Source: SAR86 cluster bacterium AG-313-N18
GTDB lineage: Bacteria > Pseudomonadota > Gammaproteobacteria > Magnimaribacterales > D2472
Direction of reading: 5' to 3'
DNA: 43,131 nucleotides
Assembly: GCA_003283765.1 (NCBI GenBank)
Contig: QBVY01000007.1
Span: 1-43,131 of the forward strand
How positions within the stretch are numbered: position 1 is the first letter of the stretch; every line of letters starts with the position of its first letter. The position numbers were made by a program, and so were the translations under genes. Positions 2,818 to 15,277 of this stretch are shown here, piece by piece. Below the pieces are notes generated by a model. The model worked only from the letters and a program-made list of their open reading frames with translations. It had not been told where the DNA came from and did not search any database.

Positions 2818-3671
2818 TGTTGGAGTTGTTCAGCTACCTCTGCTGCAAAGTCTTTAACCTCAACCTCTATACCTTCACCAACTTTGAAGCGAGCAAAAGC
2901 TACAATCGATGAGTTATTTTCTTGCAATAATTCCTCAATTGATTGATCTGGATTTTTAACAAATCCTTGAGAAACTAAGGTAACCTCAGAAAGAAATCTC
3001 TTAATCTTGCCTTCCACCATTTTTTCCATAATAGATGGGTCTTTTCCAGACTCCTCTGCTTGGGCTAAAAATATTGCTCTTTCTCTCTCAAGCAACTCAG
3101 GATCGATATCCTCTGATTGCAAGCAACTCGGATTAGTTGCAGATACATGCATAGCTAAGTCTTTTGCCAATTCTTTATTATCAGAATCAATTGAAACTAA
3201 AGCAGCCAATCTTCCGTCTGAATGAACGTATGATCCAATACACCCACCAGATGGAACTTCCATAGTTTCCAGTCTTCTTAACTGGATATTCTCACCAATA
3301 GACTGAATTAAGGATTGTCTCTTCTCTTCAAATACTGAGCTCAAATCAGCAATATTATTGATTTGATTATTCACAAGATATTCAGCTACATCATTTGCAA
3401 AATCCTTGAACTGGGAATCTTTAGCAGCAAAATCTGTTTCTGAGTTAATCTCTATAAGGCTCGTATATTGTGAGTTCTCGGCAATCTTCACCTCACCATC
3501 GGCAGCAACTCTTGAGGCTTTTTTCTCAGCCTTAAGCGAGCTATTTGCTCTCAGAAGATCTAAAGCCTTTTCAAGATCGCCATCTGTTTCAACAAGTGCC
3601 TTTTTGCATTCCATCATGCCTACACCTGACATTTCTCTTAATTCTTTAACTTGACTTGCAGTAATGGTCAT
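2814..3671 (-). CDS. tsf: Elongation factor Ts
   Basis: Guanine nucleotide exchange factor for EF-Tu. The 285 residues match the usual length (283 in E. coli). The N-terminal module has the block [13 protein letters not shown], and the core contains SETDFAAK, both diagnostic. The gene overlaps rpsB by 4 bases upstream and pyrH by 4 bases downstream (ATGA at both junctions). The partner gene tuf is not found in this window, so EF-Tu must be encoded elsewhere. Confidence 0.98.
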
Positions 3672-4630
3672 TTTTCTTCCTTAGAATCTTCAGCAGCATC
3701 TTCTGATGTGCTCGGATTTTCAGCAGATATTTCTTTGGTTTCGTCTATTGCTTCATCACTCTTTTCAATCGTGTCCGATGCAGACTCTTCGATAGCTTCA
3801 TCTGTTTCAATTGGTAAATCTTCTTCTGGTTCGCTTAACTCAGCCTCTTCAACTAGATTTAATGCTTTCCCAGAAGTGACTGAGGCCTTTTTAACTTTTA
3901 CTTCAGAAGCCTCATCATCAGTTTGTATATTTAGAGCTCCGCCCTGAGAAGATGCTAGACCTCTAGCACAGGCATCACTAATAACTTTTGTAATTAATCG
4001 AATAGACCTAATTGCATCATCATTTCCTGGAATAATGTGATCTATTCCTTCTGGGTTTGAATTAGTGTCAACCAGAGCAATAATTGGAATACCCATTTTT
4101 TTTGCTTCTGTGACTGCTATTTTCTCATAAGCAACGTCAACTACAAATAAAGCATCTGGCAAGCCTTTCATATCTTTTATGCCGCCAACACTTGCATCTA
4201 ACTTTTCATATTCTTTTGTAATATCTACAGCTTCTTTTTTTGAAAGTTTGTTAATTCTTCCTGATGACTGCAATTCTTCAATATCTAAAAGACGTCTAAT
4301 TGAGCCTCGTATCGTTTTCCAGTTGGTTAAGGTTCCGCCCAGCCATCTTTTATCTATGTAGGGCAGGCCAATAGAGGAGGCTGATTCTTTAATAGTCTTA
4401 GATGCAGAGCGTTTTGTACCAACAAATAAAATTCTATTTCCTTTAGAACATATTTCTTCAGCCTTTGATGCGGCTGCATTTAGGCATTCTTGGGTCATCT
4501 CAAGATCTATAATGCTGATTTTTTTTCTAGTATCAAAAATAAAGGATTCCATTTTAGGATTCCAAAATCTTTGCTGATGACCAAAATGAACGCCTGCATT
4601 TAACAGGTCTTTTATAGAAACAATACTCAC
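3668..4630 (-). CDS. rpsB: 30S ribosomal protein S2 with long acidic C-terminal tail
   Basis: S2 binds late to the 30S subunit. The family core is clear: LLNAGVHFGHQQRFWNPKM at the N-terminus, then GTKRSA, RWLGGTLTNWKT, and PDALFVVD with DTNSNPEGIDHIIPGNDDAIRSI. The protein is 320 residues, against 241 in E. coli. Homology ends near residue 231, and the remaining 89 or so residues are dominated by Glu, Asp and Ser with no obvious fold. The start is GTG at 4630, chosen because GGAGG lies five bases upstream and MSIVSIKDLL fits the family N-terminus. It overlaps tsf by 4 bases. A structured leader precedes it. Confidence 0.97.
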   Translation of the reverse strand: MSIVSIKDLLNAGVHFGHQQRFWNPKMESFIFDTRKKISIIDLEMTQECLNAAASKAEEICSKGNRILFVGTKRSASKTIKESASSIGLPYIDKRWLGGTLTNWKTIRGSIRRLLDIEELQSSGRINKLSKKEAVDITKEYEKLDASVGGIKDMKGLPDALFVVDVAYEKIAVTEAKKMGIPIIALVDTNSNPEGIDHIIPGNDDAIRSIRLITKVISDACARGLASSQGGALNIQTDDEASEVKVKKASVTSGKALNLVEEAELSEPEEDLPIETDEAIEESASDTIEKSDEAIDETKEISAENPSTSEDAAEDSKEEK

Positions 4631-4728
4631 AATTTCCTCCGGGGTTATAACTCCGGTACCTCATAATGTTGACTCATTTTCACAAGCACCCCAACAAAAA
4701 TCCTATTGGTACCTTCGGGATTTAAAGT
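4631..4728 (-). promoter_or_regulatory. Structured rpsB leader RNA, probable S2 autoregulatory site
   Basis: The inferred transcript has about 98 bases before the GTG start. Two hairpins are visible. The distal one pairs AAATCC with GGATTT (plus-strand 4718-4723 with 4698-4703), its loop holding GGTACC. The proximal one pairs CCGGAG with CCCCGG around TTATAA (4639-4656, one A-C mismatch), and its 3' arm runs into the GGAGG ribosome binding site. A second GGTACC lies at 4655-4660. E. coli and relatives repress rpsB-tsf by S2 binding to the leader. That this leader works the same way is inference from position and structure. Confidence 0.6.
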
Positions 4729-4734
4729 TTGTGT

Positions 4735-4763
4735 ATTCTATAGAAAAGTTGAGATAGATTAAA
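4735..4763 (-). promoter_or_regulatory. Candidate sigma-70 promoter of rpsB-tsf
   Basis: Reading the minus strand there is TTTAAT, a 17-base spacer, then TAGAAT (-10 at 4735-4740). The -35 overlaps the dapB stop codon. The -10 matches the element used in the stronger rpsJ promoter of this window; the -35 is poor. No terminator is visible between dapB and this site, so readthrough from dnaK-dnaJ-dapB is possible. Confidence 0.45.
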
Positions 4764-12962: not shown

Positions 12963-13312
12963 GGGGGCGAATTGGGTTCGACGTTTTTACTGGATTCCAA
13001 AGCGCATGCCAAGATTGTGGTAACTCTTGTAAAACATACTACAAAAAAATTAGTTGCAGAAAACGACAACTACGCTTTAGCCGCTTAATTGGCTAACCAA
13101 TGCAAAAATTGTCTATGGTTTGAAGCATTGGCAAAATACATAGTCTAGTTTTGCTGTGGAGTCTTAACACAGTAACGCGAATCCTAATTTAGACTAGCCT
13201 TTAATACCCTGCTCTTCGGGTCATCGAGGTGAAACAAAAAGAACGAGCTAAGCATGTAGAAGTCAGGTTGAAAGACTAACGGACGCGGGTTCAATTCCCG
13301 CCGCCTCCACCA
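12963..13312 (+). ncRNA. ssrA: Transfer-messenger RNA (tmRNA, SsrA)
   Basis: One-piece tmRNA of 350 bases that rescues stalled ribosomes with SmpB. The acceptor stem pairs GGGGGCG at 12963-12969 with CGCCTCC at 13302-13308 (one G-U), and ACCA is encoded at 13309-13312. The T arm GCGGGTTCAATTCCCGC precedes it, and the 5' D-like region reads GGGTTCGACG. The tag reading frame starts at the GCA resume codon 13056. The 3' end is followed three bases later by the stop codon of the opposing peptidase gene, leaving no room for a separate terminator. Confidence 0.98.
13056..13088 (+). other. tmRNA proteolysis-tag reading frame
   Basis: Ten codons from GCA to GCT followed by TAA encode AENDNYALAA. The E. 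coli tag is ANDENYALAA, so the ClpXP-recognised end YALAA is conserved. The internal part, read by SspB in E. coli, has Glu and Asn rearranged. One alanine from the tmRNA itself would precede it. Confidence 0.95.
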
Positions 13313-13315
13313 TCT

Positions 13316-15277
13316 TTAGTTCAATACAGTCCTGTTAAAGTGCTCCAGCATTTTCTTGTACAGCATTAATCTATTTTCAGGCTTCCTAAAGCCATGTCCT
13401 TCTTTTTCAACAATAATTAATTCATGCTCTTTACCAGCTTCTTCTAATGCATCAGCTAATGCATAGGCATGCTCTATAGGGGCGCGCTGATCCTCTTTTC
13501 CTGAAACAATAATAATTGGAGCCTCTAGCTTGTGAGCTTGCTGAACAGGTGACATTGCTTTAATTTTCTTAGGGTCTTGGCCAAGAGTTTTATCTAAATA
13601 TTTACCACCCCATTTGATAGTTTTAATATCCCCTTCGTCATATAGCATTTCCAAATCAAATACTCCAATATATGCAACGGATGATTTATAAAGATCTGGA
13701 CGGAGCATTGGAGCCATTGCAGCAGAGTATCCTCCAAAACTACCACCATATATTCCAATTTTTTCAGCATCAGCTATTCCTTGATTAATAGCCCATTCGG
13801 TAGCCTCTATAATGTCTTGCTGAGTATCTCCTCCCCACTCACCAAAACCCATTTTAGTAAACTCTTTTCCATAACCTGTTGAGCCTCTAAAATTTACTTT
13901 TAAAACTGCATACCCAGCCTGAGAAAAAATATGAGTATCGGGATCAAAACCCCATGAGTCTCTAGCATGAGGGCCTCCATGAGGTATTACAATCATTGGA
14001 GCTGCCTCACCCTCAAGCTGAGCCTTAGCAGGAGTGTAATAACCATGTATTTTGATGCCATCAGAATTTATAAAATTAAATGGAACTTCATGCTCTAGAC
14101 CTTGATCATCAATTTCAGGCCACATAGTAAGCAAATATTTAACTTGATTTTTTTCTAGATCATATAGGTAATATTTTGAGGAAGATGCCGAATCACCAAC
14201 AGCTATAATTAATTTGTCTCTGTTTTTAGATAAGTCCACCAAGCCAATTTCTTTTGTATCGAAAACTTCTAAATTTCCATTGAAAGCTTGAACTGCTTGC
14301 ATAATTGAATTTTGCAATGGATCATCATTCTCAAACCAATAAGCTCTGGCATATCCTGGATTGATTGTGGCGCCAAGCACTTTATCATCTATGATTTGTG
14401 GATATGCATCATAAGCTGGGTGATGGAAAACGACATTAGTTTCACCTGTTTTGGTGTCGATTTCTTTAAGTTGATAGGTTGAAGTCTCAGTGCTGTCAAT
14501 GATATGAATTGTAGAATCGTCTTTTGAAATGTTAACGGGGTAAATCTCCCCCTCTCCGTATGGCGTTTTACTTAATACCTCCCAGTCATCTTTCTTGGAA
14601 GCACGATACATAGTGACGGTATTATTATCAATATCACTACCGACGGCGAATCTTGGCGTGCCTGATCGATCTGAAACAAACTGACCGCCTGCTAATGGGG
14701 ATTTACCAAGTCTTTTCTGCTGACCATTGTAAACATTTAATCTAATAGCATCAGCAAAACCACCATTATTTTGTTTTCCAAATCCACTCACAGACAAAAG
14801 CACATGCTTGTTATCATCTTCTAGGATATTTTCTACGTAACCATATGAGAACTTATCTACTACTTTGCTTCTGGCGCCTGAAGTTCTCGCCCTCATTCCA
14901 AATACATACGCAGGTTTTTTAGAATCAAAGTTAATTGCAAAATATTCGCCTATAGAACCTCTACCCCAGGAATCATAGTAACCAATTTGTATCAATAAAC
15001 GTTCATTATTGACCCAAGAATAACTTGCTATCTCCTCTTCTTTTGTAAGAGTAATGGTATTAATTAAACTTAAACTTTCTGCGTCAAAAATAGAAAGGCC
15101 TTTCTTGTCGTCAGGCATCTTGGTTAAAACGCTAATCATCCTTCCATCAGGCGAGATTTTTACATTAGTGTATGAAGGCAGAGAGCTAAACCTTTCTACA
15201 AAATCCTCACTGACACCTAGATCTGCAAATGCATTGAAGTTTAGTAAAAGAATTATTGATAATATGTATTTTTTCAT
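13316..15277 (-). CDS. Exported S9 family (prolyl oligopeptidase-type) serine peptidase
   Basis: Secreted or periplasmic serine peptidase of the S9 alpha/beta-hydrolase family, closest in layout to the acylaminoacyl-peptidase/DPP group. A signal peptide spans about residues 1-18, with likely cleavage after AFA. The N-terminal two thirds show beta-propeller-like repeats (ISPDGRMISV and similar). The C-terminal hydrolase domain carries GGSFGGY with Ser513, the GKEDQRAP loop with Asp596, and GHGF with His628, a complete triad. Length of 653 is normal. It probably trims short peptides in the envelope for amino acid supply. It is convergent with ssrA at a 3-base gap. The leader is very short and lacks a Shine-Dalgarno. 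Confidence 0.93.
   Translation of the reverse strand: MKKYILSIILLLNFNAFADLGVSEDFVERFSSLPSYTNVKISPDGRMISVLTKMPDDKKGLSIFDAESLSLINTITLTKEEEIASYSWVNNERLLIQIGYYDSWGRGSIGEYFAINFDSKKPAYVFGMRARTSGARSKVVDKFSYGYVENILEDDNKHVLLSVSGFGKQNNGGFADAIRLNVYNGQQKRLGKSPLAGGQFVSDRSGTPRFAVGSDIDNNTVTMYRASKKDDWEVLSKTPYGEGEIYPVNISKDDSTIHIIDSTETSTYQLKEIDTKTGETNVVFHHPAYDAYPQIIDDKVLGATINPGYARAYWFENDDPLQNSIMQAVQAFNGNLEVFDTKEIGLVDLSKNRDKLIIAVGDSASSSKYYLYDLEKNQVKYLLTMWPEIDDQGLEHEVPFNFINSDGIKIHGYYTPAKAQLEGEAAPMIVIPHGGPHARDSWGFDPDTHIFSQAGYAVLKVNFRGSTGYGKEFTKMGFGEWGGDTQQDIIEATEWAINQGIADAEKIGIYGGSFGGYSAAMAPMLRPDLYKSSVAYIGVFDLEMLYDEGDIKTIKWGGKYLDKTLGQDPKKIKAMSPVQQAHKLEAPIIIVSGKEDQRAPIEHAYALADALEEAGKEHELIIVEKEGHGFRKPENRLMLYKKMLEHFNRTVLN

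Follow-up and report, generated by a model that had tools for sequence, protein, structure and literature searches.

Does the gap between dapB and rpsB in a SAR86-cluster genome hold a regulatory leader, and in which fold would such a leader act? The window (the whole stretch of DNA analysed, 43,131 nt) is assigned to this cluster by kinship, its rpsB protein sharing 90–95% identity with its counterparts in several named SAR86 assemblies. On the minus strand, the end of dapB at 4759 is followed by a 128-nt gap, which is the rpsB 5′ leader, and then by rpsB and tsf. An earlier note on this DNA had described an rpsB leader with two hairpins and a repeated GGTACC, at 4655–4660 and 4708–4713, and had proposed that S2 binds it and controls access to the ribosome site. 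Both positions of the word are exact, and the assignment to rpsB holds as well, the gap being located directly 5′ of a Pfam-confirmed rpsB. The locus contains the following features:

dapB, ends at 4759, minus strand (Pfam DapB_N and DapB_C)
4735–4742, minus strand, -10-like element TATAGAAT, likely the own promoter of rpsB in the dapB–rpsB gap (family-wide motif TATRRAAT)
4636–4640, minus strand, Shine–Dalgarno sequence (SD) GGAGG (sequence)
3668–4630, minus strand, rpsB, encoding ribosomal protein S2 of 320 aa (open reading frame with GTG start at 4630–4628; Pfam Ribosomal_S2, E 1.2e-87)
tsf, downstream of rpsB, minus strand (Pfam EF_TS)

The leader and its relatives

For comparison, we collected the sequences preceding rpsB in 88 relatives that belong to the same family (hereafter f1); together with the window they give 89 leaders from 10 genera, 22 of them from the window's genus and 67 from outside it. 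In 84/89 of these leaders, the motif TATRRAAT occurs 5′ of a conserved CGAA word, in 83 cases at a distance of 16–17 nt, compared with 6% in base shuffles. This sequence pattern makes it likely that rpsB has a promoter of its own inside the dapB–rpsB gap, and the position of the -10-like element would place the 5′ end of the transcript near 4728.

The Rfam model t44 (RF00127), an element annotated in E. coli NC_000913 as tff directly 5′ of rpsB, can be aligned over its full length with 4737–4644 of the minus strand (20.8 bits; E 0.044 when 301 bases are searched), and this alignment makes the two GGUACC copies the strands of a closing stem. Of the search against the known rpsB leader model, which the earlier note had suggested, the full-length alignment was thus obtained, while the score stayed under the curated gathering cut-off of 44 bits, at which the leader is not found. 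Since 44 bits is a curation threshold, we file the leader as a diverged rpsB-motif homologue and not as an Rfam-called t44. Near-matches to the Rfam families Fibro-purF and RAGATH-12 were rejected at E >1 in 301 bases. Across genomes, t44 exceeds its cut-off in 115/185 genomes of the class and in 0/106 f1 genomes (a set that also contains genomes without an identified rpsB), with two f1 matches below the cut-off at E ≤1. From 5′ to 3′ on the mRNA, the leader element comprises the following parts:

4714–4717, minus strand, conserved CGAA immediately preceding the closing stem (family alignments)
4708–4713, minus strand, closing stem (P1) 5′ strand, GGUACC (t44 alignment; covariation)
4692–4699, minus strand, inner stem 5′ strand, with core UGUUG at 4696–4692 (covariation)
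4688–4691, minus strand, junction GGGU, 5′ strand of the putative pseudoknot (GGGT in 89/89 leaders; adjacent fifth pair covaries outside the genus)
4683–4686, minus strand, apical hairpin 5′ strand (covariation)
4673–4676, minus strand, apical hairpin 3′ strand (covariation)
4664–4671, minus strand, inner stem 3′ strand, with core CAACA at 4671–4667 (covariation)
4655–4660, minus strand, closing stem (P1) 3′ strand, second GGUACC (t44 alignment; covariation)
4651–4654, minus strand, conserved GGAG following the closing stem and equivalent to the t44 GGAGG (alignments)
4642–4645, minus strand, ACCC, 3′ strand of the putative pseudoknot, one base from the SD (ACCC in 89/89 leaders)

In the window sequence, the inner stem carries U–U mismatches at its two outer positions.

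A covariance model, R1, was built from an alignment (A1) of 32 leaders that we chose among the 67 outside the window's genus, so that this genus was left out of the model. In a search of the window, R1 scores the leader at 45.5 bits (E 1.2e-9), with a second match at 13640–13558 (16.5 bits, E 0.065); in the whole assembly the leader is the best match and the next one reaches 22 bits (E 0.06). A search of 203 genomes of the order (E 0.001, stricter filters) gives R1 a single match, at the start of rpsB, in each of 89 genomes. Among the 107 genomes of f1, these 89 are exactly the ones with an identified rpsB; at this whole-genome threshold (E 0.001), the 96 genomes from other families yield no match. 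When 73 individual loci are searched (21 kb), R1 gives the E. coli rpsB leader 28 bits and matches 28/50 loci of the class at E ≤1 (E. coli included), 14/16 loci of two sister families in the same order (f2 and f3) at E <0.1, and 0/7 loci of a further family, f4.

The architecture also resembles that of known rpsB leaders. The rpsB motif described by Meyer (2009, PMC2704228) lies 5′ of rpsB (or tsf), has a closing stem capped by short stems and forms a pseudoknot between the junction and a 3′ extension after the closing stem; the SAR86 leader shares its position, its capped stem and the complementarity between junction and 3′ extension. In contrast to that motif, the SAR86 closing stem is short (mostly 5–6 pairs), the inner stem is A+U-rich and the pseudoknot strand lies 0–4 nt from the SD. 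What we call the inner stem may be equivalent to the upper portion of P1 in Meyer's description. With t44 and the E. coli leader, the SAR86 leader has in common the end-to-end alignment, a GGGGUGC junction, and GGAG and AACCC on the 3′ side, whereas the CAC/GUG pairs at the outer end of the t44 stem do not form, the start codon is GTG, and ACCC is 11 nt from the start in the window compared with 25 nt in E. coli. We find three features of the rpsB motif, namely a position directly upstream of rpsB, a P1 capped by further stems, and a family model that recognises other rpsB leaders. Judged from these sequence comparisons, the leader is almost certainly homologous to the proteobacterial rpsB motif (t44), in a diverged and compact form placed before rpsB–tsf. 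Among the matches listed in a literature search, none combined SAR86 with rpsB, and none combined SAR86 with a ribosomal protein leader.

Compensatory changes in the closing stem, inner stem and apical hairpin

GGUACC is palindromic, so the word pairs with its own repeat, and the repeat might be nothing more than two functionless copies of a six-base palindrome that came together by chance. In fact, the window holds four copies of GGTACC, compared with 1.98 expected from shuffles, and 14/100 shuffles hold as many; consequently, only the closeness of the pair in the leader (53 nt start to start) is notable. That the leader has no excess folding energy (see below) would also suit such a coincidence. 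What stands against it are compensatory changes at the same columns in relatives, together with the matches found by the independent model R1.

These changes were first sought in an anchor test on an alignment made without structure, in which the bases 3′ of CGAA were compared with the bases 5′ of GGAG. Paired with their own partners, the closing-stem strands form a mean of 5.65 consecutive pairs (54 distinct strand combinations), compared with 2.3 when strands are swapped between genera and 4.72 when they are swapped within a genus; 0/2000 permutations, which ignore relatedness, reach the observed mean. Given how high the within-genus value remains, much of the closing-stem signal lies between genera. 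At strict register, the stem falls below four pairs in 3/89 leaders (L011, L027 and L091), and allowing a one-base shift leaves L011 alone; the closing-stem positions of L027 and L091 were corrected by hand.

Both structural alignments give the same picture. In a MAFFT alignment of the 22 same-genus sequences (A2), double changes occur in 10/22 pairs, and 0/500 shuffles are as high on all five measures; 94.6% of cells pair, compared with 89.2% after shuffling and 44% in the best slid register. In A1, double changes occur in 14/20 pairs (6/500 shuffles as high; 0/500 on the other four measures), 100 cells are changed on both sides compared with 28.0 in shuffles, and slid registers pair in at most 55%. 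Unprompted, RNAalifold returns the closing stem, the inner stem and the apical hairpin from A1, and the closing stem, the inner-stem core and the apical hairpin from A2, where the register of the outer inner stem differs. From A2, it also adds invariant pairs (columns 3–5/92–94 and 79–80/89–90) that are incompatible with the pseudoknot and occupy SD bases.

On the evidence of these alignments, the closing stem, the inner stem and the apical hairpin are maintained among relatives by compensatory changes. The covariation of the closing stem already contradicts a chance repeat, which we regard as extremely improbable. Similarly, the suggestion in the earlier note that the two GGUACC copies could pair with each other is borne out, as pairing between the two sites covaries strongly in the 89 leaders. 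Conservation of the word itself, which that note had also looked to, is not observed: 12/89 leaders hold GGTACC, all 12 from the window's genus and 0/67 from elsewhere, and within the 22 same-genus leaders the 5′ copy is found in 8/22, the 3′ copy in 10/22 and both in 6/22.

The putative pseudoknot involves GGGU (4691–4688) and ACCC (4645–4642), which are complementary in 89/89 leaders. Because its four core pairs are invariant in all of these, only a fifth pair can covary; in A1 this pair is GC in 21, AU in 3, GU in 1, UA in 1 and unpaired in 6 of the 32 leaders.

Two alternative hairpins lack covariation

The letters of the two hairpins originally proposed are present on the mRNA strand. Hairpin 1 would pair AAATCC (4723–4718) with GGATTT (4703–4698), with GGTACC in its loop, and hairpin 2 would pair CCGG (4656–4653) with CCGG (4642–4639), thereby reaching GGAGG (4640–4636). 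The core of hairpin 1 (AATC/GATT) is found in 21/22 same-genus leaders with near-constant arms, and in 7/67 leaders outside the genus; in a looser positional search for it, the background in swapped controls was high, and the result was left unused. Hairpin 2 pairs in 87/88 cells of the same-genus alignment, where no compensatory change is seen among the 22 leaders. Family-wide, its outer two pairs form in 36/64 distinct rows, compared with 30.1 in global shuffles (0.2% as high), yet this count equals that of within-genus shuffles (36 vs 36.1), so shared ancestry accounts for the excess.

We therefore rejected two independent hairpins as the functional fold, since covariation is lacking in both, their arms being near-constant or explained by ancestry. 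Rather than displaying GGTACC in the loop or bulge of two separate hairpins, the conserved fold consists of a closing and an inner stem, an apical hairpin and a putative pseudoknot. In other words, pairing between the GGTACC sites covaries and the hairpins do not, so that the element survives while the two-hairpin model does not; by analogy with E. coli, an S2 autoregulatory element is still the best reading of the leader.

The same hairpins (AATC/GATT and CCGG/CCGG), or similar ones, could instead represent the ground state of a two-state switch, excluding the closing stem and pseudoknot until S2 selects the latter. The nearly complete pairing of hairpin 2 within the genus (87/88 cells in 22 leaders), the two SD bases that CCGG/CCGG takes, and the SD-taking pairs that RNAalifold adds on A2, at odds with the pseudoknot, would be in keeping with such a switch, as would a closing stem that is not the predicted ground state. 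However, hairpin 2 shows no compensatory change, its family-wide excess vanishes in within-genus shuffles, and hairpin 1 is present in 7/67 leaders outside the genus. On balance, we consider a switch of this kind unlikely.

The stem fold is marginal in energy models

Single-sequence folding gives the leader no excess stability (z = +0.85; 161/200 shuffles fold at least as well), and stability was rejected as evidence for the element, since the leader folds no better than shuffles. In energy models without a pseudoknot, the closing stem has a probability of 0.07 in the window and a median of 0.08 in the 89 leaders (at least 0.5 in 14/89), whereas in the same nested models the closing stem of the E. 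coli leader has a probability of about 1.0. With the pseudoknot strands kept free, the energetic cost of the stem fold is 3.8 kcal/mol at 37 °C and rises to 5.0 kcal/mol at 15 °C; in these models, cooling to 15 °C thus does not favour the closing-stem fold any better. Judged by general stacking values, the GGGU/ACCC helix could repay this cost. Alternatively, S2 may be needed to fold the stem and pseudoknot.

Spacing to the start codon in SAR86 and sister families

The 3′ strand of the putative pseudoknot lies close to the ribosome-binding site (RBS) throughout f1, with ACCC 9–16 nt from the start codon (median 13) and the first SD-like word 0–4 nt 3′ of ACCC, both in 89/89 leaders. The distance to the start codon has a median of 19 nt (range 9–105) in 50 other leaders of the class, a comparison set biased towards t44-recognised leaders, as it consists of 49 genomes that we picked down a ranking of 137 t44 matches, plus E. 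coli. As 13/50 of these leaders also have at most 16 nt, we rejected the idea that compact spacing is unique to SAR86. The f1 layout lies at the short end of the known spacing range.

The start codons themselves differ as well. In 65/89 family genomes, rpsB starts with a codon other than ATG: GTG is used in all 22 leaders of the window's genus, TTG in 43 and ATG in 24. At the other class loci, ATG was assigned in 48/50 by a script that favoured non-TTG starts; TTG starts at L194, L210 and L235 had been doubtful.

The sister families show two further arrangements. In f2 and f3, AACC(C) is 29–39 nt from the start in 15/16 loci (L060 left out, where an earlier AACC had been picked), and the leaders contain a small inserted inverted repeat, as judged by eye. 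In f4 (L182–L188), the junction word GGGTGC is found upstream of rpsB in 0/7 loci and the leader element is not seen; the upstream reading frame ends at most 14 nt from the rpsB start in 6/7 of these loci, with several overlapping.

A proposed mechanism for S2 autorepression

The review PMC10931766 reports that E. coli S2, together with S1, represses rpsB–tsf via the leader. It places the RBS outside the S2 operator and, for that reason, calls the mechanism of repression unclear. By analogy, we propose that free S2 (in E. coli with S1) would bind the SAR86 leader and stabilise the stem and pseudoknot fold, and that the ACCC/GGGU pseudoknot at the SD would directly block loading of the 30S subunit. 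Occlusion would be direct in f1 because ACCC is 0–4 nt from the SD. Incorporation of S2 into new 30S subunits would let the leader relax into other folds, allowing translation of rpsB–tsf. As a whole, the explanation, an rpsB-motif homologue that S2 would lock into a stem and putative pseudoknot and that would so block the ribosome site, appears highly likely to us. Of its parts, S2 autorepression via the SAR86 leader is probable by analogy with E. coli, and direct occlusion of the ribosome site by the pseudoknot is somewhat favoured.

The ancestral fold could also have been kept for another purpose, as a translation enhancer, a standby site or an mRNA stabiliser instead of an S2 sensor. Non-ATG starts, present in 65/89 family genomes, give the leader scope to determine expression, and an S2 response of the SAR86 leader would be deduced by analogy. 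In contrast, the leader is homologous to an element that, according to PMC10931766, responds to S2 in E. coli, and at E 0.001 R1 finds the element in f1 at rpsB alone. We regard this alternative use of the fold as improbable and retain S2 autorepression as the preferred reading.

A more far-reaching possibility, which we put forward tentatively and consider doubtful, is that the SAR86 S2 operator has collapsed onto the RBS. The fold would then be marginal and mainly S2-bound, occlusion would be direct, unlike in E. coli, and the order would display three states: compact in f1, extended by the inserted inverted repeat in f2 and f3, and lost in f4, where rpsB abuts or overlaps the reading frame before it.

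The feedback loop by which ribosomal protein S2 regulates its own synthesis is poorly understood. A genome-reduced marine lineage with the operator set against the SD, and with relatives in which it is spaced out or the element is lacking, offers a natural series for tests of how S2 blocks translation. The Rfam t44 cut-off misses the element throughout one bacterial family. The leader represents a regulator of a known kind, in a clade that the cut-off of the public model does not see; it is of interest as a comparative system rather than as a new kind.

We note two further observations on this window. Its S2 protein carries an acidic C-terminal extension past the Pfam domain (domain 9–224 of 320 aa; coordinates 3668–3900), compared with a length of 241 aa for E. 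coli S2 as given by the gene length in NC_000913. In addition, a tmRNA gene lies at 12963–13312 on the plus strand, with the tag AENDNYALAA.
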